DNA from: Ulva prolifera
Lineage: Eukaryota > Chlorophyta > Ulvophyceae > Ulvales > Ulvaceae
Assembly: GCA_023078555.1 (NCBI GenBank)
Contig: CM041204.1
Span: forward strand, 4,990,430 to 5,054,429
Direction of reading: 5' to 3'
DNA length: 64,000 nt
Shown here: piece by piece, positions 1 to 64,000 of the stretch
Position numbering within the stretch: the first letter of the stretch is position 1
Layout: each line of letters starts with the position of its first letter
Notes under the pieces: model-generated
Told to the model about the DNA's origin: nothing
Databases searched by the model: none
The model's input: the letters and a program-made list of their open reading frames with translations, nothing else
Position numbers and translations under genes: made by a program

Positions 1-3000
1 TCGCAGACACCAGGTCACAGGCAGCAGGCGCACTGCAGGTGCCTGCGCTGCTGCAGCGGGCCTGCTCCTTGGCTCTCACATACGCAGCAGACTCGGCATC
101 TCCTGCACAGCCCGCAGCGCTTTCGTTTTTGACCTGCTTCTTTCAAGGACTGCGCCAAGCAGACGGAGCGCTGCACACCTTGCACCCCGCAGCAGTGCAA
201 CTGCTTCTGCAGCCTGCCGACGAATCGCTCCTGCAAGCAGCGCTTGGAACCTCCGCGGCTGCACGCGTGACACTCATGCCAGCCGCCTGCCTGCGAATCG
301 GCCTGAGTCCCCAGCCTGCCATTGCAGCCGCACGGCTTCTGCTGGCCCTGCTGCAGCCATCCAAAGATGAGCCGGCTGTCCCTCGTCCAAAGCAGATCAT
401 TGCACAGCAGGCTCGGGTGCTTGCAGCAGTGCTGGTGGCCGCCCGTGACACCCGGAACACAGAGCTGGCGCAGGCCGCCGCCGAACTGGCTGCGGCAGCC
501 CGGGGGCCCGTGCTGCGGCTGCTTGTGAAACCACCTACACAGGTTGCTGAGCTGGAGTCGAGTGTTGATTGGGATGGCGTTGGGCAGCTGGCGCTGCAGT
601 GCCTGCAGGTGCAGCCGCTGCAGGTGTGGCACCTGGCCCCGGACTCCCTGAATCAGGGATCCGCGTTCTTCATGTGTCTGTACTGATTTTAAACATTCCT
701 GGTGCCGGTGGTCCCGGCGCATGGCTGTGCATGGCCATCGCATCTTCAACCACTTCGGCGTACAGAACAGCCCTCACAGGCACGTGCCTGTATCAACATT
801 CTGGGGTATGGTGCAGGCTCAGAAGCTGCCCACTTTCGTCCGCACCATGCTGCCTGCTGCCGGCTGGGACCTCCACGAGCTGCTCCCAGCACACAGCATG
901 CTCTTCACGAACGCCCAGTGCCGCCTCGTTGTTGCCTCGCATGTGGTCTGCGCCGCCGCTGCTGTGAGCGGCGTGCGACCCCTGGGTCGGGACGCTGCAC
1001 CGATCTGGACATCCCTCGAGCGCCTCACCGAGGCGCCGCCAGACGCCACGCATGAGCTGCCTGCGCTGTGCGTTCAGCTGCTGACGTGTTGTGTGCGATC
1101 CATGTCCAAGACTCTCAATGCGTGGCCTGGTGCCGCTGACCCTAGCCCGCCCGACCCCATGACCCCTGAAACGGCTGCTGCTGAAGCCGACCAAAGGCCA
1201 TCCAGTGAGCCAGCACACGGAATTGCACCAAGGGCGGCTGGATGTGAGAGTGGCCGGGCGTCTCACGGTCTGTATGGCGTTGTGCGGCCATGGCTTGAGG
1301 TGATCGATTCTCACATCGGAGACGTTGTTGCGCTGCTGCCGGATGCGTCCGTGCATCAGGAGCCATACGCTGAGCTGGCAGCGGCTGCAGCACACCACAG
1401 TACGGCTGCGGCGGCCGCCGCAGCCGGCCCGGCGGCGGCAGTTGCGTGCCGTTCGGCGCGGAGGCTGTGGGCCGCGTTCGTGCGTGAGCCCGAAATCCCT
1501 GCCGCCACGCCCCTGGAGGACTCGTCCGAGCAGTCTGAAGGATCCTCTGATACCTCACAGGACGCGGGGACTGGCGAGGATTCAGCTGGCCGAGGCGCAC
1601 TGGCTGCGAGCATTCCAAGCACTAGCAAAGCTGAGTCAGAGGACGACAGCGATTTGGAGGAGCAAGGGTCAGGGCAAAGGCACACAAGTGCTGCTACAAA
1701 GCAGCAGCCACAGGAGGCGCCAGCATCAGCACCGTCAGACGAGTCGGCGTCGAATGACTCGTCATCAGACCCTTCGCCGGCTAGCGAGGACCCATCTGAC
1801 AGGCAGGCTGCGGGCCGCAACAGCGGAGGTCATTCATGTAATGCAGCCAGCAGCAGGCGGGCAGAGGATGCCGCAGCGCGGCCCGCTGCGAACCTGAAGG
1901 TGGCTGCGGCTGCGCTACAGGCGCTGAGCGCGGTGGCATCGAGCGATGCGGCAATGGCGGTGCTGTTTGACACGTCGGCGATCAAAGCACGCTTTGCGCT
2001 GCCTGCTGTGGTGGCTGACGTGCCACTGCCGCTGGACTCAGTGGCGATGCTGGGGGAGCTGGGGGACGGGCTCAGCGCTGTGGCTGGAGGCGATGCGGGA
2101 GGTGTGGGCCCAGTCCATGCCGACCGCGGCCTGAAGCATCTTGCAGGCTCACAGGCTGGTGGCGCGTCTGCAGTTCGTACGGAGCTGCTTCTGCTGATCG
2201 AGGTATGACCGCATGCGCTGGCTTTACATGATTGCATGGCTACGAGTGTTCAACAGACCGACAGGAAGTCTTCGGCCGCGTGCCATGAGGTTTTTAGCTC
2301 AGTCCCCTGAAAAGGCTGCAGCCGACCCCCTCATCCTATTTTTAGCGAATCAGAAGGAAGCGACCCGTGCGTATGATCATGTTGATCAAGCGGGGATCTG
2401 CATTGTCTTTCGTGTGAATTATGGGCTCTGTGCTCCTGCGGTGGCGGGTATCTGCTTGGACACAGCAGGTCATGAGCTGCTGCTCCATGCTTTCAGCGTG
2501 GTTCGGAGCTGCAGCTCAAGACCAATAGCGCATTGGCTTCCGATGACGGCAGCTGGCTGAGGTCTCCGCTGCCGACAGATACGGGCCGCACATGCAATCA
2601 TACAGCCACCTGCGCCGTGGCCACTTCTGTGCAGGGGCATCCACACACCCAGCAATGCTCTCGATGCGGTGCCTTGCACCATGTTGCACCCTCTCCGCAG
2701 CTTCCCATTGCAGCCCTGCCTCTGCCGTCTCGTAGCATGTAGCACGCAATCGCAGTCGGCATTGCCAGACCTGGACTGTAAGTGGCGTTCTCACCTCAGC
2801 GCCGGTCACCCATGCATGAGCTATCAGGTGACGACGGTGTCAACTCATTAACCTTGCCAGTGTGCAGACAGTGGTGACCTGTGCCCATGCACATATGGCT
2901 TGCACTCACGCCTCCGCTGCAGCAGTGGAGGCGGCCCAAGCGCAGCTGCTGTCGGCTGCCCAGCTGCTACTACCCCAGCTGCTTGCCACCTATCATGCGA

Positions 3001-6000
3001 CCATGCATCCTGAGGACCGGGCGTGCCTGCTTGTGCTGCGGGCCCTCGATGCGGTTCTGGCTGCCCCTGATGCGCCGCTCGGGCAGCCGCGGCCCAGCAC
3101 GCCGGAGCCTCCTGGGGAACCTGTGCATGGAGGTGCAGGTGCAGGCTGCGCAGGCAGCTTCCTGAGCAGCATGGCATTCGTGTGGGGGCGGCTATGGGGC
3201 CACGTGCAGCGCAGCGCCGCGATCACGCCAGAGATGATGAGGGTGTTCCAGCGCAGGCCAGATGTGATCGACCCACGGTGTGTTGCCCCGCACCTGCACC
3301 CCGGCCCCTGTGCAGCCGGATCCGCACAGACGCCATGCTGCAGTGTGCTCCTCAGGAGTGCGGCGGTCTATTTCTGCTGTTGTCCGTGGCGCACTGATGT
3401 GTATCTAAGCGCTCCCGCGGCTCAGCGCGCCTGGCGGTCACACGAAGCCGGGTACGAGAGCGACGGCGCTGGTGCATGCAGGAGGATGGCGCTGGCCGCG
3501 CTGTACTTTCCAGAGGCACGCACGCAGGCCGTGTCGGAGCAGGACCCCTACCGCGGCAGCCCGGCTATCATGCAGGCACCGCAGGCGGCGAGTGCGGGGT
3601 ATGATCCTGCCACCGTTGTGCCAGCCGCGGCTGCGATGCTGCGGCGGGGCTGGCTTGATGTCAGTGGCATCGTGTGCGGGGGCTGGCTGCCACTGCTGCT
3701 GCGGTGCCTTGGCTGCGTGGACGAAGCCCTCAGGTGCGCCTCTGGTCGTTGCATGCATGAGGTCCATGCAAGAGCCAGAGCCTGGCGAATTCGCTACTGT
3801 CTGCCTGATCTGGCAATGTGCCGCCACACATCCATGGACGCCATACATGCTCTGGTGTTCCACCTGTGTTGGGATTGACAGTCGGCGCTTAATGGGAGCC
3901 TGGAGAATTCTGGGTGACTCCCCGGCTGTGCCCTTCATTTGGGCCGTTCTGCGCGTGTGTGTGCATCACTGCCAGGCGGCTGAGGTGGCACCGGCGCAGG
4001 GATGCGCCAGTCCTGGCCGCTGCCTAGGCTTCCCAGTTTCAGGCATATTCAGCGCTTTCAGAGGCTCGGGAGAGACAAACAAGGCGTTCCTCTGGGGCGG
4101 CCACTCCGTGAAAAGGCCACCATCCCGTGGCTGCTCTCGGTGTGTGCACCGCTGCCAAGCCTCACCTCACTCTGGCGCCGTGCTCTGCAGGATGAATGCT
4201 TATGATGCTCTCTCGGTGCTCTTCGAGGCAGCGGCTCCAGCCAAGGGCGACGCTGCCTCGTCCCCCGGGGCGGTGCGAGAGGCGTCCCAGGTCATCACAC
4301 TCCTCGCCCTGGTCCGCAACACGACGCAATCACCCTTCCAGAAGCTTCCGCAAGCTTCTGCGGTGTTCCTCGCTGAGGCGGCGGTCGCTGCGCTCAACCC
4401 CGCAGCTTTCCTGTACGCGCCCATCAATGCATTTCTCCTCCGGAGTGCGGCGCTGCCACAGCGCGGCCTCAGCATGTTTTCACAGTTACACGATGGTCAG
4501 GCACGCGACTGGCGTGGGCGCCGCGCGTTTGCACAGGCGCTCGCCCTCGCCGCGCCGCAGGCCGCCGCACCACGCATGAAGCTCGCCGCTGCGGCCGCGG
4601 CCGCGCCGTCAGACTCTGCCGCTGCACGCGCGTTTCTACGTGCAGCGGCAGCGTCGGCGGCGCTGCCGGCCTCCTGTGTGCATATGCTACGGCGAGGCAC
4701 GCTGGGCCACGTCGCAGCGTGCGCGGCTGCATCGTTGTCGCTGCTGGACCGCAGCGCCCTCTCAGAGCCTGCAGCCTCCAGCAGCGACGGCGCTCAATCA
4801 GCTCACGGAGAGAATGTGCTGGTGGCACTGGAGGTGCTGCGGACCGCGGCGTGCGTGTCACAGCTGTGGCGCGGCACGACCCGGAATGAAGCGGTCGCAA
4901 CATTCACATGTGCCATCTGGAGCGTGCTGGGAGCGCTGGCGGGAGCGCTGGCCGCAGCCCCTCACTCCTGTGCGTCAGTCTCTGGGGCCAGCTGGGCAGC
5001 AGCTGTGCTGCACAGGCTGCTGCGCGTGCTGGGAACGTACCTGCGCGGCGCGACTGCATGGCACCACAGTTCAGCCCGTCCAAGCAGCTTTGGGCTGCCA
5101 TTCTGGAAGCAACTGCTGGATGTAGCTGTCTGCATTGGGTCACCAGAGCAGCCTGTGCCAGGGACTGGTTCAGAGGTGACACAGACATTTGCCATGATCC
5201 AACAGTGTCTGCTCTGCTCCAGCTTGGCTGCCATCAGCACTCAGGGCGACACCGGCAGCCATGCAGCTGCTCACCCATGCAGGGATGCCCAGGCGTACCT
5301 GCAGCGTCTTTGGGGAGCTGCTGCAGCCCAATCGGTGCGGCCTCACCATGAGCAGCAGCTTTGCGGCCCCCTGCATCTGTCCAGTGAGCCTCACGCAGTG
5401 CGGCTTCTGGCGTGGATTGTGGCTGGCGCATGTCAAAAGCATATCAACAACATGTCCGATGGTCATGAAGGTGCGGCTCTCTGGCACAGACTTGCCCTGG
5501 CAAAGACACCGTGGGACCGGTCATGCAATGGCTTTGTGTTGAGGCTAGCTGTAATCTCGCTTCACATGTTCACAACTGCAGGACTGGTGTCACTGAACAT
5601 GCCGCCGGCGGTCCTGGAGGACGTTCAATCAAGCATGTTGCAGACTTTAGCTTTGCACACAGCGCAACCACTCTCACAGTGGCCCTGTGGGAGATGGCCA
5701 GGGCTTACATCTATGCTGTATCGCCTAGCCTTGCAGATGATCACATCTGATCTAGGCGACGTAGACATCAGCAGCACATCTGGGCATTTGGACCACAGCA
5801 AGCTTCCTCCACAGGTGCTTCGTGCATTTTGTGGGGCTCTGGGCGCAGTGGCAGCAGGGAAAGAGCGTCTGCATGATGTTATGGGTCAGGCAGTACAAGT
5901 TGACCGAAATTCGCATTCAATGATTTCGTTCAGTCAAGATAGACACATGGTGGGAGCGGAGGGGATTCGAGCTCCGCCTGTTACAATGTGGTCCATTCTT

Positions 6001-6021
6001 CACGCACTTGCTTGTAACTGA
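1..6021 (+). CDS. URB1: URB1/Npa1-like nucleolar pre-ribosomal protein, C-terminal part (5' end outside window)
   Basis: In yeast and animals URB1/Npa1 is a large nucleolar helical-repeat scaffold for early 60S pre-ribosomal particles. The window opens inside an exon. Coding blocks I can follow are about 3-620, 803-2202 (ends at a good GAG|GTATGA donor), about 2920-3290, about 3400-3735 and 4192-6021. The diagnostic block is in the last exon near 4405-4560, where APINAFLLRSAALP is followed by a short Met-Phe-x-x-Leu stretch and an Arg-rich helix. This matches the URB1 C-terminal pattern (aromatic, P-(I/V)-NRFLL, then MF..L). The rest is Ala/Leu-rich HEAT-like helices. A Ser/Asp/Glu-rich low-complexity stretch lies at about 1510-1800. 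The stop is the TGA at 6019-6021. The next gene ends convergently about 90 bp away. Family identity is inferred from the C-terminal motif; introns are approximate. Confidence 0.62.
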
Positions 6022-23035: not shown

Positions 23036-23531
23036 GTCATGCGAGCAGAACAGACTTACAGGGAACGATTCATCTCGCGTCTCCACACCTGCTTCCCAGA
23101 GCTTCCCAAAATAAGTTGGTGGGGCTTATCATTTTTTATGATTGGCCGTGTAATCGATCTGATCATTTGGATGGGCCCGTTTCGCCTGTATGCATGGCAA
23201 CGAAGTGTCGCAAGACCGCACGGCCGGTGCACGGTCCAGCGCCCGCCTCGCCAGGGCTGTGAAATCACGATGCACGCGCAGATGATTTATTACGGTGGTG
23301 CGCACTGGTGATCGCTTTTGGTTGTATCTGCTGAACGAGTGCTTTCCGAGCTTAGTCTCTTCCGGCCGCTCCTCTGGACCGCAACCTCCCTATCCGTTGT
23401 CACGAGTTTGCTTACCTGAGAGCAGTTTGAGCTTGCAGTACCTGCGGCAAAGCAAGCAGGCTGTTTTCTTTTTCTTTCGTGTGATCAACTTTACCACATA
23501 CCATAACGTTTCAGAACAGCAATCTTACAGA
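23036..23531. promoter_or_regulatory. Divergent promoter region shared by UBA3 and EBP
   Basis: The first codons of UBA3 (minus) and EBP (plus) are about 500 bp apart, head to head, with no other gene between. Any shared regulation is inference; no TATA or named element was identified. Confidence 0.45.
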
Positions 23532-24221
23532 ATGGACCCACACTCCATCCCGGATGACATGCTGCAGCATCCTTATCCTGGAATTTTTCTGAGAGGCTAT
23601 CAGGAGCCGGTGCTAGGGGTTGTTGGTATATGCACCATCTTCTTCGTGGCTGTTTTTGTGGTTTTCACAATCGCCTGGGAATGCAGCCCAGAGCTGCATG
23701 GAGGAGAAAAACTGACGTTTGTATGGCTTGTGATAACTTCATTAGTTCATATGGTTGTGGAAGGAGCGTACGTGTTGCATCAGGATTGCTACACTAATAA
23801 GGATCATAACATGTTCTTGCTTGAGCTATGGAAGGAATATGGCAAGGCCGATTCAAGGTACATGGTGAGTGATCCGTTCATTGTTGCAGTTGAGGGTGCC
23901 ACATCTATGGCAGTTGGCCCCCTATGCCTAATGGCAGCTGGTTTGGTTTTGTTTAGGTCTGAGTGGCGATGGAACGCAGTCTTGCTTGTGTCTGTGTGTC
24001 AGATCTATGGCACAGTGTTGTACTTTCTGACGTCCCATCTGGACAAGCACATGTATACACGCGAGGAACCACTGTACTTCTGGTTTTTATTTGTGGGAAT
24101 GAATACACTGTGGGTAGTGATCCCTGGCATTTGCACACTGTATGCTTTTACACAAGTAGCCAGAGCAGTGCGTGCCGTAGAGGGCAAGCCGAAAAAGGCC
24201 GAAGAAAAGAAAGACCTCTAG
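23532..24221 (+). CDS. EBP: Sterol Delta8-Delta7 isomerase (EBP/HYD1), intronless
   Basis: This ER membrane enzyme shifts the sterol double bond from C8 to C7 in ergosterol/phytosterol synthesis. The ATG at 23532 gives 229 residues, the same size as human EBP (230). The open frame extends upstream, but that part lacks similarity. Four to five hydrophobic helices are visible. Conserved family residues are in place: the His and Glu of LVHMVVEGAYVLH, the second Glu in VEGATSMAVGPLC, the block QIYGTVLYFLT, and the Asn and Trp of MNTLWVVIPG. The C-terminus is Lys-rich (KPKKAEEKKDL), as in animal EBP. It is a single uninterrupted exon in a neighbourhood where most genes are split. Identity is firm. 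Confidence 0.95.
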   Translation: MDPHSIPDDMLQHPYPGIFLRGYQEPVLGVVGICTIFFVAVFVVFTIAWECSPELHGGEKLTFVWLVITSLVHMVVEGAYVLHQDCYTNKDHNMFLLELWKEYGKADSRYMVSDPFIVAVEGATSMAVGPLCLMAAGLVLFRSEWRWNAVLLVSVCQIYGTVLYFLTSHLDKHMYTREEPLYFWFLFVGMNTLWVVIPGICTLYAFTQVARAVRAVEGKPKKAEEKKDL

Positions 24222-42583: not shown

Positions 42584-45500
42584 TCAGCAGAGTTGCTGCC
42601 TGATGAGTGGAGCTAGCTCATCCTGCGAGGTCCAGTACTCGATCTGGCACACCGGCTGCACTGCCGCTGATCCCATCGCTGCACGCTCCCTTAGCCGCTG
42701 GCTGCATGCGTACCCCTCACGCACTAGCGCGATGTCCCCCTCACGCAAGCACAGCACTGCGCACAGATCATTTGCACCATCGCCACAGAACACGATGCGG
42801 GAGTGGTACTGCAGCAGCGCCCGAACGTGCAGACCCTTGCATAGCGCAGCTGGGCAAAACGAGCATGCATGGGCCTTGTCTGCGGGCTGGCACGGCCAGA
42901 TCGTCAGCTTCTCGCGTGGCACGGATTGTGGCGCCGCTGCGCAGCCGCCCTCGATCATGTCACGTGCTTCCGTTGCTTTGGCAAACGACAGCTCCCCAAC
43001 ATTGCTGACAAGGCAGTGAAACACGCTCGCCATGCCAGCCCCCTGCAGCCACAGTGCGATTACGCTCTGCGTATGGGGCAGCGATGCTCCTTCAAACACA
43101 TGTGGCCGCGCTGTGATGGCCTCTCCAGTGCTGTTGCATGATCACACGGCTAAGCCACAGTTGCAATGGTGGTGTGACAGATACTGATATACACTCTTGG
43201 TGTATTACCAGGGTCGGGGCGCCCTGTGACATCAGGTCGCGTGACCATCTGCCACTGGACTCACACTAGTGCCCACACCTCTGACTTCAAAGAGATCAGG
43301 GGACACATGCACAGGGCATGAGGCAGCTGGAGCACTGATATCTGCAGGGTGCCGCACCTCAAGCACGTGGGAGATGAAGAAGTCATTTGCGTTGGAAAGC
43401 ACTCGCAGCGCGACGGTCCCCATCGCGCGCACTGCGCCCAGCGCGGAGCGCATGCTGTGCGGCATCTCCGCCTCTCCCAGCTCCCGCAGCACGCCCTTCA
43501 GGTCCTGCAGCGTGACCCCCCGCTCCCGCATCTCCTCCAGCACTGCATTGATCACTGGCACAAAGTCCGCGGGGCTCTCAAGGGCGACGAGCATCGGCAG
43601 CAGCTCCGGCGCGAGGGCCTCAACTGCGCGCTCCATCACGTCAAAGTCCACGACCGTCTTGTCAAAGTCACACAGCAGCAGCGGCCCGCCCCGGGGTAAG
43701 CCATCCTCCATTGCCATCTCCCGAGACACGCGCTGCGCGACGTGCGCTACTGCCGCAGCGTCCGCGGCCGCGGGCTCCTCCATTCCGGGCTTGGCCACGC
43801 CGACAGACGTGCCACGGCTGCCGCGCCGCCGGTGCGACTTCGGCGGCCGTGTCTTGTAGCGGTGGCCATGGAACCACGCCTCCATGCCGAAACGCTTGTC
43901 CAGGTAAGGCCGCACATCAGCCTCTGCATCCGCACTGCGCAGCAGGGGCAGCACGGCGTCAAGGAGGAGATTGTCGTCTGCGGAGCCCCGGAAGCCAAGC
44001 ACTGGCACGCCGTTGCGGGGCTGCCAGAGGAAGGCCAGGGGTGTGTCGTCGATGATGAGTGTGCGCGCAAGCGGGCGCGCGAGGCGGGTAAGGTCCTTTA
44101 CGCAAGGATACTCGCTTGCCGCAGTCGTGCCGGAGCGGCAGACGATGCGGTCACCGAAGAATTCTCCGTCAGGGTCGATCGCGAGGAGGATCGGCATTGC
44201 GTACTCTGGCAGCCCAGCTGTGAACACGATCAGTTCGCCTAGTTGGCTTGTCTGCCGCAGGAACTCCGTCAGGCCCGGTCGCTCCACGACAAAGACCCCT
44301 GCATGGCGGTGCTGGGTGACAATGGTTCCTGCTTTGCCCGATGTGACCGCTTCGCTGCAGCCAGGCAGATGCAGCGACGTACATGCCCGCGAATGTCAAA
44401 GTGGCACAAGGATGCCTGCCGACGCAATAGTGATAGAACGAGCTATGGCTGCAGTGGCGGAGTGACACATATTAACGTACCAACACCCTGCAGCCTCAAA
44501 TCATAGATGTTCTACCACACACGCACACAGGGCTGTGCCTGCACATGCATGCACCGCTGTGCGGGACACACCGTAGGCACTCACAGAACACACTGCCAAC
44601 ATACTCGTATGTCTCAAAGCTATATGCCCGATGCGAGATTCTCAAAACGCGAGTGTCACATCTTTGCCGTGGCGTGCGCTACCACTTGCTGGAGTGCTCA
44701 GGAGGGCACACCTTGAGGGTTCAGGGCGGAACCCTTGCCAACGAGGTGTGTGCGGACATGCGGCGGGAGCGTGGGAGCGCGGCGCGGCGGGAAGCTCGCG
44801 ATGAGAGTGCCGTCCAGGTCCAGCACGATGCTCAGCTTCCCCACCCACTGGGGCGCCTGTGGTGGCACAAGTGTCGCCTCCAAGTGGTCCTCCCCGCTAC
44901 ACAGCGTGCCGCTGACGTCGAGGCTCTCCAGGCTGTCTGCGGTGGTACTGCTCTCTCGCTCCACAGACTGCTCCGCAACCGACAGTGCACTGGCACCGAC
45001 ACTGTCGGTGATCGCACTCTGTGTCGACACACTGCTGACGGAGCTGGGCACGTCTGCTATGGCGCAGATGTGCTTGTCCACATTGAGGGCCTCCAGGTCA
45101 AGGGCGTGGCTGCTCTGGCAGACGGGGCACTGGAAGGACTTGGCATCCATGTTCTGTCTGTCTTGTTGCGGGGCCCAGCCATTCGAGACCTGGGACATTT
45201 TGGAAGGCCCCACATGGTGGGAGGCAGACGTGGGCACTCCCGGCGGTTGTGTCTCTGCCGCCTCCATCTTGGACGCCGGCGGTTGCTGGGCTTGGAGGGC
45301 GCGCAAACAGAACATGGTGATGCAGCTCCAGCAGAACGCATGGTCGCACGGTAGTCGCGCGGGCGACGAAAGCACCTCCAGGCAAATCGGACACTTGAAG
45401 TCTTGCATTACTGTCGTGGACCACTTTTCGCCCTCCAGCCGCTGCACGGATGCCAAGCATTTACGTCGGATTCAAGTGCGACCGCACAGCGGCACCAGAC

Positions 45501-46141
45501 AACACCGAATCAACAAGTAAAGCGCACGCATGGGGACGCTTGCACCAGAATGCACACCTGTGACACGCTCTGCAATGACTGCAGCACCTGCGCAAGTGTG
45601 GTGCTCTTGAAGAATGACTTGTCTGCCAGGAAATCGTACGATGCGGCTGTAATTGCACTGTCCCCGCAAGCAAGCTGCAGTCGACGATTGCGCTTCTTTA
45701 CAGCTTTAAGAACGGCGCTGTAGTTCAGGGCAGCGAAATTGGTGATCTCCTGGATTCTTTCGCGCGCTCCAGCCAAGCGTTGGAGTTTGTCTCGGACGCT
45801 TCCCTGGCTTTCAATGTTGTCCACCTCGACTGTAAGAGCTTCTTCAAGATCAACATAATGTTTGTCAACCTTTCCCAGCTCAGAGTGGAGTGCCTGCAAA
45901 ATGCTGCCTTCGTTTATGCGAAGATGTGACCGTCCGGGGCAGCGTTCTGGGCGCGCATACGGCATGCGATATGTGCGCTCTCAGCAGTCATAGAGATGCA
46001 GCGCACACTCTCAAAGAGAGAGCCTAGATGGTCTAGGCTTTCACAGTCCGCCTTGATGGCTTGCTTAACACCTTTATAGTCTAGAAAGCTGGAGGGATCC
46101 TTAGTGCCTTGATAGTTTAAGAATCTTTTGCCGAACTTCAT
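42584..46141 (-). CDS. SPX-RING-HAD(FCP1-like)-HAD(PHOSPHO/PS2-like) fusion protein
   Basis: Read from the ATG at 46141 (MKFGKRFLNYQ), the canonical SPX N-terminus. SPX exons (46141 to about 46010, then about 45955-45558) contain FLDYKGVKQAIK, LHSELGKVDKHYVDLEEAL and ALNYSAVLKAVKKRNRR, which hold the basic residues that bind inositol pyrophosphates. After a phase-0 join (45558/45441) the next exon (to 44713) encodes a complete C3HC4 RING (CPIC, PCDHAFCWSC, then CPVC after an insert). In the same open frame comes HAD motif I, IVLDLDGT. The exon 44298-43358 completes the FCP1/NIF-like domain (VFTAG, VKDL, LIIDDTP) and starts a second HAD, LLLCDFDKTVVDFD, then VLSNAND. The last exon (43042-42584) gives CPAALCKG and GDGANDLC. 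The second HAD matches PHOSPHO1 and plant PS2/PECP1, phosphocholine/phosphoethanolamine phosphatases. The exact SPX intron border near 45900-46010 has two options. Confidence 0.85.
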
Positions 46142-47270
46142 AATTCTCCCGTGATGAGTGCCTGCAAAGTTCAAATGTAGTCGGAACTCAATTTGCCTGT
46201 GTTTCATGCCCGCGCGGTAGATTGTCTGCATGGCGGGATGGGGCCGCGCTGGATGGATCCAGGCAGTACCTCATGGCCGGCCTCAGGTACCACCGACGCT
46301 GACGAGCGGCGACATCTGCACAACGGAACACCTGTGCAGATCACGATCCCACAGAGCTATAGTAGCTAAAGGTTAAGCTACTCACGAACATATCCCACGA
46401 AGTGGCTCACTTCCTGCCGCTCTCGGCTCTAGGCATCCCAGGCGCGTTTAGTGCGCAGGTCACAGCCCGGGAATGGGACGCTAAAGAGCACGAATTTCCA
46501 GCCTCAGGATATTGGGGCCTTAAATAGCAAAATATTGCTAATGAAAATGCTTGTTTAGACTTCTTCAGTGTGACAAGAGCTTTGATTCCATCCGCGTGAC
46601 AAGCGCGGAGATTCGGGTCAGCAAGTAATGGTTCAGCAACATACGAGCCCTAACAACCTCAAGGAATTTGTTGACACACCGTGAAATTTTCAATTTGGGG
46701 AATTATGCCACATGCACTGCAGGCAGTCTTGCGCGATGCCACGCACACACCGCCACAGGACCATATTATCCATTGCACGGGCCACAGAAACACAGATCTT
46801 GCCGCGTTGCAGAGATGTATATCAGCTATGTCACAATGAAACGGGGCCATGGAACATATGACAGCTCAGAAGAAGGAGCAGTGGCAGATTCCCCGCGGTT
46901 GTGCTGGCATATGCACAGTGATCACCATAGCCACAAGCACCGCTGCATGCACGCCCCCCAATGGCCACAGTGTCCGTTGCTGAGAGACCTGATCCTCGAG
47001 GGAGTACATAGGGCAAAAGGGTTGAGTGAGTGCGGCGGTTACCCTCTGGCCTCGCGGGCTCTATCCTAGTTGTGGTGCCTGCGAACGCACAAATTCGAAA
47101 GGAAAGATGCCGTTCGCGTGTGATGACATCGCGTGCGCGGGTGCGCATGCTAAACACAGAACAGCCTCTCTGTTCGATCTAGTTCAGCAATTTTCCATGA
47201 CGGTTTGGCACTGGTGTGAGGGTCGAGATGGCAGGCCAGCCTGCAGTCCGTACTTAGTTTCATGCATTAT

Positions 47271-49623: not shown

Positions 49624-52600
49624 CTAGTTAATTCCTGCATTACCGGGACCAACATTTGTAACCAGGGTCTTGTCACCATTGAGCACTGCAATGTTGCCCT
49701 CCGCATCGACGTCCATGATAATCTTGTCTCCCTCTTGGATGTCACCTCCCAACATCCGCTCTGCCAGAGCATCTTCTAGCAAACGCTGAATGGCACGCCG
49801 CAGCGGGCGAGCACCATATGCTGGGTTGAAGCCCTCATCAACCAGGCGGTCCTTGAAGCTACATCCACTTGAAAAGTAAGCAACACACAACCTTCATTCG
49901 AAACACCGATTCTGAAGACGGACCAAAGCAACACAAGCTAAAGCACAAGCACGCTGTCACGAAATCATGCTGACACATCCCAACAGCAGACTTCTAGGCA
50001 GATATTGTCTTCCAAATCGCACATGTACACATGCATGCAGTTCTGACTTAAAAGAACCCGTACCAGTTAATCTTCACAATACAGACACGAACCTGGCAGA
50101 GATGTGACACGGCCAAAACGCAAGGCAGTAAGCCAGTGCTCAGTACAGCCACACAGCACAAATGAATCAGTGGGTAGACCCAATCAAGATGTGAAGAAAG
50201 CACACCGCTCTGTGAGGTCGATAGTGATCTCCTTCTCCTTAGCGCGCTCAATCACATCCTTGAGCATGATGTCTGCAATCTGCTTCACTTCCGCCTTCGT
50301 CAGCTGCCGGAAGACGATAATCTCATCCAAACGGTTCAGGAACTCTGGCCTAAAGTACTGCTTCATCTCCTCCATAACCTACACAATTGTCCTTGTACAT
50401 GAAAAATCCACCTTGCTTCTCTATCAGATGACAAAATCCCAGACTACGCACTGATCTGACCAGGTCAATGTCGTATTCAATCACACACATGAAACATCAA
50501 ACTTTGCAACAGACACTGAGGCATAGATGTCTGAACAGAGTACAGCATACCAGGTTCTTGATGCGGTTGTAGCTGTTCTCTTCCTCATTGTCAGAATCCA
50601 GCTGGAAGCCGAGGCCCCCACCACCCTTCTCAATGACAGTTGAGCCCACATTGGACGTCATAATGATCAGCGTATTCTTGAAATCAACAGTGCGGCCCTT
50701 GCTGTCTGTCAAGCGGCCATCTTCCAGAATCTGAAGCATCATGTTGAACACGTCTGGATGTGCCTTCTCAATCTCGTCAAAAAGCACGACAGTGTACGGC
50801 CGCCGCCGCACAGCCTCTGTCAGCTGGCCGCCTTCGTTGTACCCCACGTAACCAGGAGGGGACCCGATGAGCTTGGCTACAGTGTGGCGCTCCATGTACT
50901 CAGACATGTCCAGCCGCACCATCGCCTCCTCACTGCCAAAATAGTACGTCGCTAGAGTCTTGGCGAGCTCTGACTTGCCGACTCCAGTCGGGCCACTGAA
51001 GATAAATGAAGCAATCGGGCGGTTGGGGTTTTTCAGGCCCACACGCGCGCGACGGATGGCACGGGAGATGGCGACAACAGCCTCCTCCTGCCCGATCACA
51101 CGATTGTGCAGCACGCTCTCCATGTTGACCAAGCGCTCTGTCTCATCAGAGGAAACCTTCTCGACAGGGATTCCTGTCCACTGTGCAACAATGTTAGCAA
51201 TGTCAGTATCCTGAACGGTGGGGCCTGCACCGCCGGCAGCGTCGGCCTCAGCGTCGTCCTGCGCCTTCTGGTCAGACACGATGGTATCGATCTTGGCCTT
51301 GAGTTCGACCTCGCGGTCACGCAGTTCTCCAGCCTTCTCAAATTCCTGGGCGCGCACACAGGAGTCCTTCTCCTTCTGGATCCCACGGAGCTCCTTCTCC
51401 ACCTCACGCGCCTCCTCTGGGAGCTGTGCGTGGCGCAGGCGCACACGGGAACCAGCCTCATCGATGAGGTCAATTGCCTTGTCAGGCAGGAAGCGGTCAG
51501 AGATGTACTGCTCAGAGTACTGAGCCGCTGCAAGGAGGGCATCGTCCGTGTAGCGCAGCTTGTGGTGAGCCTCATAGCGCTCACGCAGGCCTGTGAGGAT
51601 CTGATACGTCTCATCGACGGTTGGCTCGTTCACACGAACAGGCTGGAAACGGCGCTCCAGGGCCGGATCTTTCTCAATATGTTTGCGGTACTCATCTAGA
51701 GTGGTTGCGCCCATGCACTGCAGCTCGCCACGGGCAAGAGCGGGCTTCAGGATGTTGGCAGCATCAATGGCACCCTCAGCAGCACCAGCGCCAATGAGAG
51801 TGTGGACCTCGTCGATCATCTGCAATCAATGGCCACTGAGTCAACACAGGCGGATGCCGACATTGGCTGATACATACCAAAGCACAATCACTTGTAGTTT
51901 ATCATCATGTGTCGAAAGGACAGGGCTGCTACATCACGCAGAGCAAGCTTGGGAAGCGCACCAGAATTATATCATCGTTCTGCCTGATCTCTTCCATAAG
52001 TTTTTTAAGGCGCTCTTCAAATTCACCACGGTACTTAGTCCCAGCAACAAGCAGCCCCATATCTAGGGTGACAACCTGCTTTCCTTCGATGGTCTCCGGC
52101 ACATCGCCAGCTGCAATTTTCTGCGCCAGGCCCTCCGCAACAGCTGTCTTTCCCACACCAGGCTCACCAATCAGGCATGGGTTGTTCTTTGTGCGGCGCC
52201 CCAGAATCTGAATCACACGGTCGATCTCCTTGGCTCGGCCAACCACTGGATCAAGCTTGCCCTGCAACAAAAAAAAGCACTGCATCTGGTTCACTGGCTC
52301 CGTTTTGTGACAGCTGACATGAGGATGTATTCGACATAAAAACCCCCAGCACAGTGTAGGCATAATCTCTTCTTGGTGGGCAGCGGCACCATACTGGCAC
52401 CTGGGGCGTTAGCACGGGCCACGGCAGAAGGCTGAGTCTCGGAAAACTAGAAAAATGAGAAAAGCGCTACAAGAGAATTCAAAGTTCAAAAGAGTTACCT
52501 CCTCGGCTTGCTTTGTGAGATTTGTTCCATACTCCTCGAGCGTCGGGGTCTTGTTCGAGCTCTGCGAGCCGCCGACTCCCGCACCAACAGGCTCCTGGCT

Positions 52601-53421
52601 TTCGCCCACCATGCGCACAACCTGCAAGTTGACATTGTTTCCGTGAGAGTTTGGGGGCGTGCGGTGGTGTGTTCAGCTGTGGCCTGTGCTGAGCCACGTA
52701 CTCTACTACTGCAGCAACCACGACGATACATACCTGGTGACGGATCTTTTCGGAGTCTGCGCCCATTGACTCCAAAACGCGAGCAGCAATGCCCTCTCCC
52801 TCACGCAGAAGCCCAAGAAGAATATGTTCTGTGCCAATGTAGCTGTGTCCTGCACAGAGATGATGTTGGAGTGGCCCGACGGGATTGAGCAGTCAGGAGC
52901 GCGCCACGACGAGGCGTACCGAGCTGACGAGCTTCTTCAAGGGACAATTCGAGAACACGCTTCGCACGCGGAGTGAAAGGGATCTCTACTGCAACAAATC
53001 CGGAGCCACGGCCGATGATTTTCTCTACCTCTGTGCGTGCCTCCTTCAAGTTGACACCCATCTGCTTCAGCACCTTGGCAGCGATACCCGTTGCCTCACC
53101 AATCAGACCCAGCAGGATCTGCTCGGTGCCCACAAAGTTGTGACCCAACCGACGCGATTCCTCCTGTGCAAGCATGACCACCTTGATGGCCTTCTCGGTG
53201 AAGCGCTCGAACATCATTGTAGTGGGCTTCTTCACGCCGGTCTGGTTCGATCGGCTGGTCTTCCTTTTCCCAGAGCCATGAGGACAAGATGTTGCTGCAT
53301 CGACAACGTTTCCACGACGGAAACCAGTGAACGTGGACAACACCTGCACCTTGCGCCGTGCGGGCATACGGCGCCCTGCCACCAGGCGGCAGCTGCCAAC
53401 GGTCGTGCGAGTCATAGCCAT
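49624..53421 (-). CDS. clpC: Chloroplast Clp protease ATP-binding subunit ClpC (Hsp100)
   Basis: ClpC is the stromal AAA+ unfoldase feeding the ClpP/R protease and taking part in envelope import. The ATG at 53421 opens a basic, hydroxyl-rich transit peptide, followed by [18 protein letters not shown], the mature N-terminus. Two Clp_N repeats follow: [18 protein letters not shown] (exon to about 52921) and [15 protein letters not shown] (52740-52853). D1 is in 51965-52265, with Walker A GEPGVGKT, and the exon starting near 51823, with [11 protein letters not shown]. The ClpC-type middle domain with its coiled coil spans about 51280-51440. D2 has [39 protein letters not shown] and TSNVGS. The last exons (about 50215-50377 and 49624-49862) give [15 protein letters not shown] and [16 protein letters not shown], ending in a plant-type GPGNAGIN tail. 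The order is complete, with seven exons and nothing missing. Confidence 0.96.
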
Positions 53422-54086
53422 GATCAAAAAATTTAGAACTGACCGCTTGTCGTGGCGTGCAGTCCAAGTTAATTGGGGCTTTCCCTCCGTGTGTCGGCGA
53501 GCTTTGAGCTCTGCATGGGGGTCATACCCTCTTAGTTTTGGTAATTCGAAGCCGAAACCCAGAACATACCAGAAGCTTGTCAAATGACCCCCACGGTATG
53601 ACCCACAACGTAAACATCGCCATGGAGCACTTCACATGTCCGCGAAATGGGCAAAAAAACTCGTGCTGCAGCCTTTGCCTGACGTGGTGCAGCGTTTGTG
53701 TGGATGGCTCTCTGCGGGTGAGACGGCAGCTCGACGTCCACGTGCCAACCTGTCACGAACGTTGCAATTCAGAAGGCGGGCATAACTCCGGTAAGCCGCG
53801 ATGCACTCTTGACTCTAAGAATTGACATTGTGCGTGCATCAGCATCGACGGCGGTCTACGCCATTGGCCGACTTGTCCTCGAGTCATCCGGGCCCAGGAC
53901 ATGTACCGCTCCTGATATGCCTTGATATGCCCGTTGCAAGTTATCAAACATGTTTTCCCCCTAGTTGGCTGCAGTGCACCCGGAAGTGATCCTTGCTCAA
54001 TCCCTATCTCTGTACTCGGAACACATTGAAAACGATCGGATCAATTGAATGCATTTGTTCTCAGTGTGTTCAGCTGTATATGCGAA
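53422..54086. other. Upstream region of ClpC, no gene seen
   Basis: It contains the presumed ClpC promoter. No supported coding region up to the transposon block. Confidence 0.35.
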
Positions 54087-56304: not shown

Positions 56305-59300
56305 TTACATATCACTTGCTCCACTTGGATTCCTCAAGCCTTGCTTCAGCCTAGGTTGGAGGATGGTACTGACGCTTGTCGACGCCTCAATAGTTCTTGC
56401 ATGCTGGATAGCATGACTGTGTCCAGCCGACAGTTCTGATTCAGGCTGACTTCCTGCACACCAGTCAGATAGTAGTATTGGAAGCCGTATTGGCAATACC
56501 ATTAGCAACATAAAAAACCAGTACAGATGTTCAGTTGCATCAAGTGTCCATTCACTGCATACCTGCAGACTGTGATGGCGATTATAGGCTGCTTCGCAGG
56601 CTGATAGCTCATTGATCATGCTCAAGATCAGTCTGCCAGAGTTGCAGCCGAGCTGGCAAGCGCTCAGATTGACTGTCTGAAGCTGGGTACACATGGTGAT
56701 TGCTGCACAGAACGTTTTCATGCCTTTGTCTCCAAGATGATTTTTTGATAAGTCGAGATGTTGAAGTTGGATCTTGCCAGCAGTTAATGCCATCCAATTG
56801 GCAATGTGGATCAGGCCTGTCGCTGTTGTGCCAGTCTGGGACAAGTTGATCCTCAAGAGTTGTGTAGCTCTTTGAACGATGGCATTGATGCCACGGTCTC
56901 CCAGGTCATTCCCAGAAAGATCCAAATGACGCAGCACCTGCAGATTGTGACATACTGCCACACATCGCTCCGAATGGAATGCTAACATCGGACTCGCTTG
57001 CAGCGGAACAGCCTTGAATTCGATTGTGGCCAAGCGATCGATAGTCAGGAGCTGGACCCAGCATGCCATCAAAAACACATCAGAACATACTAACACTGTT
57101 TCGTACCGTGCACGTTAGCATTGATCTTGCAAGACTTTCGGCACCTGTTGTCCGTATCTGGTTCTGTGATATGTTCAGGTCCACTAATTGGTTCCTTGGC
57201 AGCAGCGTGGCGATGGCAGCTGCTCCACGATCTCCCAGGCTGTTCTTCGCCAGGACCAGATGTGTTAATTTGGAGTTACCAGCCAGTGCTATGGACAATT
57301 GTGATGCCCCTTCGTGGCCAAGTTTGCATCCAGAAACATCTAGCATTGACAGGCTGACATTGGATTGTAAGGACTTCGCCATGCCTCCCACAGCTGTGTC
57401 ACCTACATCCCATGGTTGAGCTCAACAACAAAATTTGATACGAGAAGCTTCGTTCTCATTCATACTCAGTGACCTGTGCCCCGAATGTATACTGCAATTG
57501 GTGCTGTGCAATCAGGAGCAAGCATGATGCTCTGGAAAGCACACAGCGGATCCGAACCTAGGTGGCAGTTGGAAACCCGTAGATGTTGCAACGTTGTGTT
57601 GTATTCTAGTGCCTGCGCTAGCTTGCTTGCAGCAGTACAACCCATGCTGAAGTTCTGTGATAGGTCAAGGAATGATAGCTGGCAAGCAGAGCAAGGAAGA
57701 ATCAACCCTGCCAACGCTGCTCCAGATCCATCTGGTATTCTATTTCCAGCCATCGATAAGCTCGTCAGAGGTGTTGCAGCAGATAGATACTTGCAAAGAA
57801 GAGGAACTCCTTTTCGACCAATTTCATTGTGTGACAAATCCAGTGTTCGCAGCCCTACATACAGACAGCTTGTCAAACGGTACCCCCCCCAAGTTGGTTG
57901 CTCTTCAGAATTGCAAGGTTGCAGGCTGAATGTGACGGGCTATGGTGACAGTGGACATACGAGTGCAGACTCCAAACATGGCAGACAGATGCTCCATCGA
58001 ATCATCATTCAGCCTGTTCCTGCTCAGGTCAAGAGCAGTAAGGCTCTGACCCAGTGCGTGTGTCACCGCATTCGCCCACGCTTGGCAGCCTTCAATGGAT
58101 AACACTGCACATGCAAGATTCATGTTGAGGTTTGATGATGTACCCCTTCCAGTCACAGCTGCTGCCATGTGCACTTCTCCTTGGGATCCACCGTCAACGC
58201 CAGCGAGATCGACTACACTCAGTGGGGCAGTTGCTATATAGCATTCTTGCAGCGCTCCGTCCATTATGTTCGCATCAAACGCAACACATTTGTTGGCGAC
58301 CTCTCCTGTCTTGCATGGACATTCTGTCAGGATCTTTGCCGCAACGAGGACACCAAACTTCCCAACAGTAAACCGACTGCCAACTCCATTGAGTGACGCA
58401 GCTGTTCCTGGGGTCGAGCCCGGTTTTAAGCATAGATTCCCACTTAGCGCTTCCATCTGTTGCCTTGGAACACCTTGAACAGAAAGGATATTTTTTGCTT
58501 CAGCAACTGCTGATGCAAAATCATCAAGAACACACTCGGGTACTGTTACTTGCCCTCGTATCATCACAGCCCTGACAGTCTCACTGAGCCGTCCACTTGA
58601 TAACAAGGCAGTCAAAAACACCAAGTCTTCCTGAACAAGCTGTGTTCCTGGAAGATCAAGCACAGTACCCCGTGCTTGCGTATCAGTCTGCCCGAGCCAC
58701 CCAGCTACATGAAGGGGAACTGTCTTGAATATCAGCTGGGATACGTAGCAACCATCAAGCACAACTGACGCGAACAGTCTTGCGCTTTGCACCCCCACAC
58801 ACAAGTTGGATAAGTTAAGAATCTGTAAGTGCTGGTTTGTTCTCAGCAGCATTTGCGCCATTTCTAGACCACTTGGTCCAACAGCAGGCGTATGTGAATC
58901 TGACAGGTGAGGGCTGGACAGGTCAGGGCTGGATGCTTCGGACAGGTGAGATTCACGGTTTTCTGAAGTGACCGCGACTTCGATGTCCGGATTTCGAGTC
59001 ACCAATGAGGCTCTTGTCAAATGTCGTATGTTGAATGTAGCCAGATCAATTGGTTCCCGGGTGATGTCAGAGCGAGCACTACGATTCGAAGATCTGCGTG
59101 CCTGGATCAGCTTTAAAGTGTCCAGACTGAAGACTCTCAGTGCAGCGTCTGGTATCCCAATGGTGCGATGTATCAGCTCTTCTTGTGCCTTACTGAGCAC
59201 AAAAGCATCTTTGTTCTCGGGTGCGGATGAGATGGCGATGAGAGGGGATGTTTCAGACATATGATGTTTGTGGTTTTGTGGTCCACTACCTGGCTGTAAA

Positions 59301-61980
59301 GAGTGCTGCTGAACCACCAAAACCTGGCATCCGTTCACTATGGCCAAATTCGTGAGAATTTCGCCTGTAGCGTCATCTTGCTCCATGCCGGCTTTCACCA
59401 ACAGCACTGTGTGGCAAATGGGCATCAGTGCTTCAACAGAATGCGCATCAGTCTCTGTGCTGGTGCACGTTGGCCGCACGTCTTGATCTGAGATATCAGT
59501 AGTTAGACTGTCATTGTCCTTCAAAATGCACACGATTGTGCGGTACAATCTTTGGACACCAATGGCCACAGCATGTGCAGCCCCTTGACATGCACCAGGG
59601 AGGCAGATTATCAGGCATCTGAACGCCAATCCAAGTGCCTACACAGCAATTATTGCTGCTTGCAAGATACTGCATGACACGTGCCGCACATGCTCTTCAC
59701 ATGGTGTATAGCCAGCAGGTATACAGGAAGCACTTGTCATGCTGTACGATCCATGCACGCTCTACCGCGAGCTGCTGCAGATGATACCATACCTGGAGGA
59801 AGCAAGGGGCTCGCTGAATAGCCACATCTGTTAGCTCAGCTTCCATATGTATCAGGTAGCTGTCTGTGGCTGCCTTGAAATCTGGGATGGATGACCCCGA
59901 ATTTGCAGACATAACCGGCTCCATACATAATGCAGGTGATCCTTTTCTTGGTACTATCTCTATGGCTGCAGCAGGCAGGGCCGTGGCATGACAGCTACCA
60001 GGTACCCTGCCACGATCTCGCTGTCCTGTCCCAGCGATTGACCGCACAGGAGCTTTGGACTGGCCAACAGCACATTGCAAGTTGGATGATGCAAAACCCA
60101 ATGTAGTCCGTGCATCAGAACTGCCTGGCAATGGACAGCTCAGTAATGATGTGTCTTCCACCAGTGCCTTCTGCAGCAAAGCCTCGATTGTAACTTGATC
60201 CCCTAACGGACGTTATCTGACATGACATGATGCATGATTGGGCCTCACATCTTCCTACAAGGACTCTCAAGTACAGCGTACAACACTTTGCCTCATCATA
60301 CCTTCACAGCATATATATTTCGTTTGCGAGTGCACAGGAACGACAAGTGCTGCATAGCATTGACTTTCGCGTAGTCGCTGTTTCTCGCAGACTCAAGTGC
60401 ATCTCGTGCCACTGATTTTGCTTGAACTAGGTCAGCAGATGCCTGTTGAAATGCCTCCTCCGCCTCCATCCGCATGGTGCACTCCTGTTCCCATCTCTGA
60501 ACATTGTCACGAAGCTCAATGTTCAATGCTGCAAGCGCTGCCTGTGCATCTGACAGATCCTGTTCAAGACTACTGTTGCAGTTCTCAGCTTTCAGCAGCT
60601 GAAGTGACAAGGTATTCTCTCTGTCTCTCAATTTGGTGATGTTGGACTCGCGCTCCTGCAAGTGACACAGCATGCAAGTTCAACACCCCAGAGGACACTT
60701 GCTGATCAGGAGAGGACACCAACATACTCTGAGTTCACACTTCAGGCAGTCAATTCTGGCTGAGAGGTCTGCAGTGGTGTTCTCCAACATTCCCCGGGCC
60801 TGCTTCAGCTGTTGCTGTGCCCGAGCCACCTCTTCTTCAGCAGTCATCTTGATCCTGTGGACGTCTCCCTGCAAGTCCTTAATCTGCGCATCTAGCTGCT
60901 GCGCATGAATGGACTCAATCTTGTAAACTTGGATCTGATTGCAAAGTTTGTTTCGCATTTGGTGCCATGAACCCACGTCGGTCAAGTGTCTCCTGAATGA
61001 CTCAATCAATGTGAGCTGCACAAGGAGTGTCGCATACACAACATTGCAGCGTTGTCAGGACCAACAGCAAATTTGTGCATGCCGGCTCTCACATTCTGCA
61101 TCGGATGCGATCTTCCACGGCTAGCTTGAGAGCATGGCGAAGCTGCATTTGACAGTTGTCGGATCCAGGTATAGCGTCAGCCATTCCCAAGTAGCGCTCT
61201 ATTCCCACTTCAACAGCTGCTGCCTCCACTTTGGGGTAGAATCTGTCATTTTGGTCAGCAGCGGTTTGGAGTTGTTGGTCATGATCATTAGCAGCGCAGG
61301 TTGGGGTGTCAGGATTTTGCGGATATTCCCCACTGAAGTCTGAGTAGTAGGTCTCCCCACTTCCCCACTGAAGTCTGAAGTCTGACTTGTTTAAGAAACT
61401 AGCCTCCAAACGTGTACATGATGGTGTGCCTGCCGGTGATCGGCAGTTGTTGTGCAGGTTCGCAGTGTCCAGAAACAGGTGCGTTGCATCATCACAAGAT
61501 CTGGATACGATGGATGCATTCTGAGAAAAAGGTTGGACGCATTTCTCAACCCCTTTCTCAGAATTGATCATACTCCCTTGGTCAGACGGCGCGCATACCG
61601 TGGATACGGCTTCGGCTCCACTTGGCCTCTCCAACCCATCTGCTCCTCCACGGTGATTGAGCAGGAACGAGTCCCCACTGCACCTTACATCGTAGAACAT
61701 AGCATCATCAATGCCTGCATCTGGTTCATCCTGCACAGATGCAAACGGCGCTGTGTGTAGCCGTCATTGCCGCCAGGGTGAAACACATCCCAGTCTTGAA
61801 GATCCTTCTTCCACTCACCACGATCGTCAACGAATCATCGGGAGGCGCGCTCATTGGCGCAGGCAGCGCGGCTATCCAACGCTTGACATTCGCTTCCGAT
61901 CGAGCATTGTAGCCCTCTGGTGGAGCGGTTAGGTTCCTGCCGGAGAACTTCAGGTCAACCACACGCGTCCCCTTCGCCAT
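56305..61980 (-). CDS. Coiled-coil and leucine-rich-repeat protein (LRR of ribonuclease-inhibitor type)
   Basis: No named family recognised. The ATG at 61980 starts MAKGTRVVDLKFSGRN, and the first exon ends at a strong GTGAGT donor near 61833. A polar, Ser/Asp-rich exon follows (about 61730-61090). Two exons then give long coiled coil: about 60770-61020, with Glu/Gln/Leu-rich heptads such as EEEVARAQQQLKQARGML, and about 60330-60660. A linker exon (about 59790-60200) and a large exon (59629 to about 57930) lead into the repeats. LRR-RI units are plain at the C-terminus: LTALDLSRNRLNDDSMEHL, LRTLDLSHNEIGRKGV, LTHLVLAKNSLGDRGA, LRHLDLSGNDLGDRGI and LQHLDLSKNHLGDKGM. The stop is at 56305. It lies head to head with IFT46. 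A ciliary or scaffold role is possible from context and architecture only. Whether all parts belong to one mRNA is inferred. Confidence 0.65.
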
Positions 61981-62760: not shown

Positions 62761-64000
62761 ATGGATGACCGCGAGTTGGAAGATGGCGACTTCGATTATG
62801 TAGAAGTACGAATGAACTACGTGCACTCAGTTGGCCTGCAAGAAAGCTGCCTTGACACAATCATACAAGTTCCGTGGTCAGCAGGTGTCGGCAAGACCAG
62901 GTGCAGCTCACGTGGTGACAAATCAGCCGCATGATGAAGAATTCTCGATTTCAGACTCTGAGCAGCACCGAGACGAATCCGGCATCCTTCCTGATGCACG
63001 TTCTCCTTTTGAGCAAGGCACAGGTATGACGCACATTCATGAAACGCATCACGTTGCAGCATGATCGCTGTGTGGTGAGCAGTTGCTGCAGTCGAGGCAC
63101 ACAGCTACAGGATCTGAAGCAAAGCATGAGGAACCAAGCACAGTAGATGCCACGGCAGATACATTCCATGGCAATCAGACTGCCACATCACCAACATCAC
63201 CCAAGCAAAGCGGCCACGAGTCTCCTTCATATGGATCTGCCACCCTCCCTGCAAGTGATGCATTTGCCTCAGGATACGACCCCAAGCAATACAAAGACAT
63301 CCCTGTGCAATCTTCAGTCAAGGCGTTGTTTGCTTACATAGGGCGTTACCAGCCACAACGGCGACAACTTGAAACAGAGCTGAAGCCATTCATTCCAGAT
63401 TACATTGCGGCAGTTGGGGATGTGGACGAGTTTCTGAAACCCCCTCGTCCCGACGGTGAACCTGAAACTCTAGGCCTGTGTGTTCTGGACGAGCCATCCG
63501 CTAAACAGTCTGATCCTGCAATCTTGCGTAAGTTTGCACGCAGCACAATGAAAGGAACAGCCGGGCTAGCTGAAGAAGATGATTTCGATGCTGCAATCCC
63601 TCATGATGATGAGGAGAGGAATGAGAAGATTGACGCATGGATTCAAAGTGTAGAAAAGCTCCGCGATGCACAATCTGTTGGAGAGGTGTGTTTGTGGATG
63701 GAAAGGTGGATGGATGGGTGGGAACTTGTGCAGCGATGTCATGCTGTTTGGACGGCTTGCACTGTGCACAGCTGCTTTGGGCATGGATGAACGCAAATGG
63801 TGTTGACCCAGTGATGAAGCAATCAGTAGGTCAATGTGCTGCAGTTCAAACCATCAAGTCGCTTTCCAGCAATAGATACACTCATCCAAGCATGGCCAGA
63901 AGAGCTGGAACCGCTCGTGAGAAGTCTGCACGTATCACGTGCATATGTGGATGTGGACGTGAAGACACTGGGAGAGGCTGTCTGCAATCTATTGGACATA
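62761..64000 (+). CDS. IFT46: Intraflagellar transport protein 46 (IFT46), 3' end beyond window
   Basis: IFT46 is a core IFT-B1 subunit needed to carry outer dynein arms and build cilia. The ATG at 62761 gives an acidic start, MDDRELEDGDFDYVE, ending in a GTACGA donor. Exon 2 (about 62880-63026) has VVTNQPHDEEFSISDSE, closely matching the Chlamydomonas IFT46 N-terminus. The main exon (about 63092-63687) holds the family core: SGYDPKQYKDIPV, ALFAYIGRYQPQ, LKPFIPDYIAAVGDVDEFL, PPRPDGEPETLGL and VLDEPSAKQSDPAIL. The final visible exon starts at 63845 (FPAIDTLIQAWPEELEPLV) and runs off the window at an NLLDI segment. About 70-90 C-terminal residues are missing judging from relatives. Identity is firm. 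Confidence 0.95.

Follow-up and report, generated by a model that had tools for sequence, protein, structure and literature searches.

Within a 64,000-nt stretch of the Ulva prolifera genome (assembly GCA_023078555.1, contig CM041204.1, positions 4,990,430 to 5,054,429 of the forward strand; hereafter the window, with positions counted from its first letter), a minus-strand gene at 46141-42584 encodes one protein that carries, from N- to C-terminus, an SPX domain, a RING, a NIF phosphatase and a Put_Phosphatase of the PHOSPHO type. Eukaryotes widely use SPX domains to sense their phosphate status. The best explanation that we can offer from the sequences, and one to which we give an even chance, is that the protein is an ancestral four-module protein of the core chlorophytes, in which SPX would gate both the RING and the NIF phosphatase on a shared client, the second phosphatase being accessory. 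In the excerpted literature, SPX acts in green algae on polyphosphate synthesis, transport and transcription; through a conserved SPX protein that carries a ubiquitin-ligase module and two phosphatases, algae would have a direct output at the post-translational level. Given its recurrence across many green algae, the four-part protein may act as one switchboard of phosphate status.

Gene model and distribution of the four-domain protein

The coding region comprises five exons (46141-46007, 45893-45558, 45441-44712, 44298-43358 and 43042-42584, stop codon included, all on the minus strand) that join into one open frame of 2601 bases and 866 amino acids in a GT-AG gene model. The introns measure 113, 116, 413 and 315 bases; each of the four runs from GT to AG and contains stops in all three frames, and GC content at the third codon position of the coding sequence is 0.73 as against 0.56-0.58 in the introns. 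Exon 3 holds the RING together with DLDGT, the first motif of the first HAD domain (HAD1, the NIF phosphatase), and exon 4 holds the remainder of HAD1 together with the first half of the second HAD domain (HAD2, the PHOSPHO type). Two of the three domain unions are thus present without splicing, which is required only to connect SPX to the RING and to close the splits within SPX, HAD1 and HAD2. An original prediction, made from the letters of this stretch, had placed the SPX start, the C3HC4 RING and the HAD motifs where we find them, with the RING and DLDGT in one unbroken frame, as their common exon confirms. Of the joins that it proposed, 45558/45441 and 43358/43042 hold; exon 3 ends at 44712 and not at 44713, and a fourth join, 46007/45893 inside SPX, had been missed. 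Its single unbroken frame for the rest of HAD1 and HAD2 is right for DFDKT and SNAND, which share exon 4 with the rest of HAD1, and wrong for CKG and GDGAND, which lie in exon 5.

A gene model from Ulva mutabilis (P0001, 867 amino acids) is 80% identical to the window protein from end to end, and the alignment crosses all four exon joins with no gap. Six-frame protein searches of the U. prolifera genome (88.9 Mb, 44 contigs), which may miss short exons so that all copy and match counts from them are lower bounds, found one copy of the four-domain gene; it is nuclear and apparently single-copy, and duplicate genes were rejected on this result. The gene offers here an apparently single-copy target for testing phosphate control of protein turnover.

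With the whole window protein as query, 71 database relatives were retrieved, 56 of which cover all four domains (each by at least 60%). The same architecture, which the original prediction had proposed to look for in other chlorophytes, is thus found in many of them: named sources of the 56 are Ulva, Haematococcus, Trebouxia, Apatococcus, Chlamydomonas, Edaphochlamys, Gonium, Volvox, Astrephomene, Sanguina, Dunaliella, Raphidocelis, Elliptochloris, Myrmecia, Symbiochloris, Scenedesmus and Tetraselmis. Two four-region proteins derive from transcriptomes, P0042 (Tetraselmis chuii; sources include mmetsp) and P0057 (a Trinity transcript). The other 15 relatives are fragments, models without HAD2, one model without the RING (P0040) and a distant SPX-RING protein (P0071). 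Taken together, the five-exon frame, the full-length match in U. mutabilis and the 56 relatives bear out the single four-domain protein that had been predicted. The names of these relatives in the databases are often hypothetical protein, FCP1 homology domain-containing or CTD small phosphatase-like; the proteins are thus already public under mostly uninformative names, and what is new is a four-domain architecture of the SPX-RING kind.

Conservation was counted in an alignment of 57 rows, from which 15 of 72 proteins had been dropped for lacking one or more of the four domains. All 18 catalytic and ligand positions are kept in 47 of the 57 rows, and the SPX ligand positions, the RING zinc ligands and the catalytic residues of NIF vary little or not at all. 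A quick maximum-likelihood tree of these rows (midpoint root for drawing only; P0057 and P0058 on long branches of unsure placement) separates a Trebouxia-, Apatococcus- and Picochlorum-type group from a group of volvocine, Dunaliella and Scenedesmus types, with Tetraselmis and Ulva placed near the base of the latter; the record label Picsp is taken here as Picochlorum. Ulva belongs to Ulvophyceae and Apatococcus to Trebouxiophyceae, and the class placement of the other named algae is presumed. The long branch of the two Ulva proteins (2.5 changes per column) points to fast divergence of this lineage. The tree is consistent with vertical inheritance since an ancestor of the core chlorophytes. 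Neither prasinophytes, streptophytes nor Chlamydomonas reinhardtii appear by name among the matches, many of which are unnamed, and sensitivity is limited.

The four domains

The SPX domain (residues 1-157; 46141-45558, exons 1 and 2, with the intron 46006-45894 inside) is assigned because the Pfam cut-off is exceeded in four of nine relatives scanned, because a family profile matches solved SPX domains, and because the predicted structure of the U. mutabilis protein contains the three-helix-bundle SPX fold. The profile, built from eight relatives including U. mutabilis and leaving out the window protein, matched SPX domain-containing protein 2 (7d3y, E = 1e-11), 5ijj (E = 1.4e-11), Vtc3 and Vtc4. 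In Vtc4 the phosphate binding cluster (PBC) consists of Y22, K26 and K133 and the lysine surface cluster (KSC) of K129, K132 and K136, according to an excerpt of PMC9911596. Residue spacing in the window protein equals that of both clusters, which yields Y22, K26 and K112 (PBC) and K108, K111 and R115 (KSC, with R where Vtc4 has K) as candidate contacts of an inositol pyrophosphate. K108, K111, K112 and N114 are present in 57 of 57 rows, 54 rows have R and three have K at position 115, and Y22 and K26 are kept in 52, the misses being four gapped rows and one substituted row. Homology, fold and contact residues therefore agree on an SPX domain whose ligand positions appear intact.

The RING had been described as a full C3HC4 domain, and all eight zinc ligands are indeed present. 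The first six (C174, C177, C189, H191, C194 and C197, within residues 174-203; 45393-45304, minus strand) come with a Pfam E-value of 3.5e-8, and the last two (C262 and C265 of the motif CPVC; 45129-45118, minus strand), read from the alignment, follow after 64 intervening residues. C174, C177, C194, C262 and C265 occur in all 57 rows and C189, H191 and C197 in 56. The fold search gave no separate support for the RING fold, the RING being barely covered among the matches listed.

HAD1 (residues 361-530; 44832-43910, minus strand, with the intron 44711-44299 inside) is identified as an NIF/SCP-type phosphatase by Pfam, fold and alignment. It scores 117.5 bits with PF03031 (cut-off 21.8; E = 6e-34), carries the DxDx(T/V) motif, and its D365, D367, T427, K468, D484 and D485 are present in 57 of 57 rows. 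Three relatives scored 112.8, 136.3 and 138.7 bits with the Dullard-like model TIGR02251, all below the cut-off of 139.15. The NIF/SCP family consists of protein phosphatases, and HAD1 is probably one of them by family membership. NIF matches occur in at least five further places in the genome.

HAD2 (residues 607-861; 43681-42602, minus strand, with the intron 43357-43043 inside) is likewise identified by Pfam, fold and alignment, scoring 102.6 bits with PF06888 (cut-off 27; E = 2.8e-29). Its HAD-IB motifs are intact in Ulva, and in the U. prolifera protein the active sites of both HAD domains are intact, as had been claimed. The only PF06888 matches found in the genome, two in number, are exons of this gene. 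We take PF06888 to be the family of PHOSPHO1 and PECP1/PS2, and the catalytic residues of each of the domains are likewise assigned from those of their families. Across the alignment the active site of HAD2 is kept in fewer rows than that of HAD1 (D611 in 52, D613 in 56, S702 in 55, K783 in 55, D802 in 52 and D806 in 56 of 57), while its cysteines C774, C777 and C782 are kept in all 57. A different residue takes the place of the nucleophile in P0028 (Chlamydomonas eustigma), P0030 (Chlamydomonas sp. UWO 241), P0043, P0054 and P0057, and further catalytic residues are changed in four of these five rows; on the tree the loss amounts to three changes, which could equal one loss with regains, a course that we judge unlikely. 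A short tail directly behind NIF is common to the records P0066-P0068, and the transcript P0079 also stops after NIF, so that their lack of HAD2 is perhaps a true loss. Models without HAD2 from Chlorella, Coccomyxa, Monoraphidium and the GHRR transcripts (P0069 and P0143), which have abrupt ends or unrelated tails, look truncated. As every one of the 57 rows keeps the catalytic residues of NIF and some lose those of HAD2, SPX-RING-NIF emerges as the constant core; HAD2 catalysis would be optional in some lineages, and it appears intact in most rows, Ulva included.

Proposed function and alternative readings

In the mechanism that we favour, an inositol pyrophosphate that is high at ample phosphate would bind the lysine patch of SPX, and this binding would alter the access of the RING and of the NIF phosphatase to a common protein client. 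The RING would recruit an E2 and the NIF domain would dephosphorylate a protein at serine or threonine; phosphate status would thereby set dephosphorylation and ubiquitination jointly for the client. HAD2 would free inorganic phosphate (Pi) from a small phosphoester or support the fold, its catalysis being dispensable in some lineages. Phosphoethanolamine and phosphocholine are the leading candidate substrates because PECP1 hydrolyses them; an MtnX-like substrate is an open candidate as well. Gating by SPX is plausible from the domain content. A more specific version, in which SPX-bound inositol pyrophosphate chooses between NIF dephosphorylation and RING ubiquitination of the same client while HAD2 reports or replenishes Pi locally, would make the polypeptide a phosphate switch in itself; we put it forward as tentative and less likely than the general form. 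We know of no other SPX protein that controls protein-modifying enzymes of both kinds.

Several observations weigh against the general form. Taken alone, the window protein reaches only 11.2 bits with the Pfam SPX model, whose cut-off is 27.8, and a genome-wide search with this model matched another gene and missed the four-domain one. At the position that follows the final RING cysteine, where an arginine helps to activate E2-ubiquitin, 55 of 57 rows have R and both Ulva proteins have Q (Q266), so that the Ulva RING could be a weak ubiquitin ligase. A sequence search with HAD2 against solved structures (PDB) gave no match at E 0.01, and the substrates of both phosphatases are guesses. The predicted structure of the U. 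mutabilis protein has a pTM of 0.47, and neither domain packing nor any gating contact is fixed by the model. Finally, shorter records exist, namely three that hold only SPX and RING (P0072-P0074, 308-385 amino acids), either pieces or separate genes, and the SPX-RING-NIF transcript P0079.

Such records, together with the NIF-Put_Phosphatase records P0128-P0136, would be expected if neighbouring SPX-RING and NIF-PHOSPHO genes had been joined by a chance placement of exons, and the window gene model was indeed read from genomic DNA. However, the RING and DLDGT share one exon and HAD1 and HAD2 another, and the same order recurs in U. mutabilis and in the 56 relatives, two of them from transcripts. 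Furthermore, five pairs of half records sit on equally long contigs (P0076/P0125, P0081/P0127, P0086/P0126, P0093/P0130 and P0087/P0002), which suggests that many halves are one gene cut by gene calling. We accordingly rejected the mis-joining of two genes, whose probability we regard as very small. Separate genes in close relatives, or two mRNAs, the findings to which the original prediction had looked for its disproof, have no support among the database relatives, some SPX-RING-only and SPX-RING-NIF records apart.

The original prediction had itself joined a sensing ligase to a phosphate-scavenging system, a view in which both HAD domains would release Pi from small phosphoesters under starvation. 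HAD2 lends this some support, being a PF06888 protein with intact motifs in Ulva and the sole such match found in the genome, and PECP1/PS2 are described in an excerpt of PMC6549246 as phosphate-starvation phosphatases for phosphoethanolamine and phosphocholine. Scavenging is nevertheless the weakest part of that interpretation, and as a system of two scavenging domains it is not supported. HAD1 is NIF/SCP-like, and HAD2 has lost its nucleophile in five of 57 rows, in three changes on the tree, and may be absent altogether from P0066-P0068 and P0079; with the catalytic residues of HAD1 kept in every row, scavenging cannot be the sole conserved job. Another HAD2 substrate is possible, given that the MtnX-like model TIGR01489 was matched above its cut-off in three of three relatives scanned and that the best solved fold is MtnX and not a PHOSPHO. 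Nor is a starvation signal in the promoter above chance: a single GNATATNC site, a motif that we take to be P1BS-like, is found some 770 bases 5' of the ATG (46907-46914), and the 64-kb window contains 13 such sites with 9.66 expected, so that a starvation promoter was rejected. We consider the scavenging reading doubtful.

The same losses could instead mean that regulation of proteins by SPX-RING-NIF is the core and that HAD2 is a structural or ligand-binding part prone to catalytic loss, perhaps a second sensor of a phosphometabolite. The three cysteines kept in all rows, including the five without the nucleophile, and the records that end soon after NIF favour this possibility. On the other hand, the 47 rows with all 18 positions, those of HAD2 among them, indicate that most lineages seem to retain catalysis, artefacts of gene calling or assembly may account for the shorter records, and one of the five rows, P0057, is of unsure placement. 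A non-catalytic HAD2 is in our view unlikely, on a par with scavenging, and an SPX-gated RING and NIF phosphatase with an accessory HAD2 remains the reading that we prefer.

Known systems and genome context

Plant NLA shares the N-terminal SPX followed by a C3HC4 RING with the Ulva protein, which we do not class as an NLA because it has two HAD phosphatases where NLA has no catalytic domain after the RING. The client of NLA is PHT1, of which the Ulva genome holds no good match, the model TIGR00887 finding two weak ones (24.1 and 23.1 bits). As PHT1s are also absent or rare in algae (excerpt of PMC13193548), any transporter client of the RING is unlikely to be a PHT1. The NIF domain differs from SCP/CTDSP and Dullard/CTDNEP1 (NIF, PF03031) in sitting within an SPX-RING protein and in that the TIGR02251 cut-off was not reached in the three proteins scanned. 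HAD2 has the PF06888 match and the HAD-IB motifs in common with what we take to be PHOSPHO1, PECP1 and PS2, and differs from them in being fused, the sole match in the genome, catalytically lost in some relatives and closest in fold to MtnX. Algal SPX-VTC and SPX-SLC proteins likewise have an N-terminal SPX that is thought to gate another activity, whereas the partner in the four-domain protein is neither a transporter nor a polyphosphate polymerase.

We found no description of the order SPX-RING-NIF-PHOSPHO in the open-licence literature on SPX architectures and algae, in line with the novelty that had been claimed; the literature on SPX architectures, SPX residues and PECP1 was available as excerpts (PMC8717665, PMC11528361, PMC13153306, PMC12388464, PMC9911596, PMC5795055, PMC12526157, PMC6549246 and PMC13193548). 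The excerpt of PMC8717665 lists algal SPX fusions without the four-domain order and has the RING and MFS classes arise gradually in later-diverging plants, while that of a 2026 review (PMC13153306) places the origin of SPX-RING in Volvox carteri; neither excerpt mentions HAD phosphatase domains after SPX-RING. The V. carteri protein of the review may belong to the four-domain family. The conserved algal protein also fits the view that the SPX-RING pairing is older than land plants. A search with SPX-RING gave 29 matches, mostly unnamed, some of which look like pieces of the four-domain family. None was named as a land-plant NLA, an absence that is uninformative since the search requires shared words. 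Among the SPX-RING proteins, P0092, P0096, P0098 and P0099 bear oomycete (Globisporangium, Pythium) and red-algal (Galdieria) names, a pairing wider than green plants.

Elsewhere in the genome there are a VTC gene, a PPIP5K-type domain (the match spans one TAG) and two PHO4-type transporter loci, and the PHR1/PSR1 coiled-coil family PF14379 has one match of 26 bits, under the cut-off of 29.1. A second SPX gene at L016 (about 3000-5200, minus strand) lies beside SLC13/CitMHS-like frames and, judged by eye, is probably an SPX-SLC. Other features of the window comprise ClpC-like pieces (50500-51825 and 52804-53631, minus strand) with AAA_2 and lid domain, UVR motif and Clp_N; leucine-rich-repeat frames on the minus strand, with clear LRR_6 matches at 56308-57114 and a weak match at 57908-59638; an IFT46 (intraflagellar transport protein) domain at 63065-63787 on the plus strand; an EXPERA/EBP domain frame at 23286-24218 on the plus strand; and an 870-codon open frame at 3409-6018 on the plus strand, in a GC-rich stretch, with a match to NopRA1 (nucleolar pre-ribosomal).
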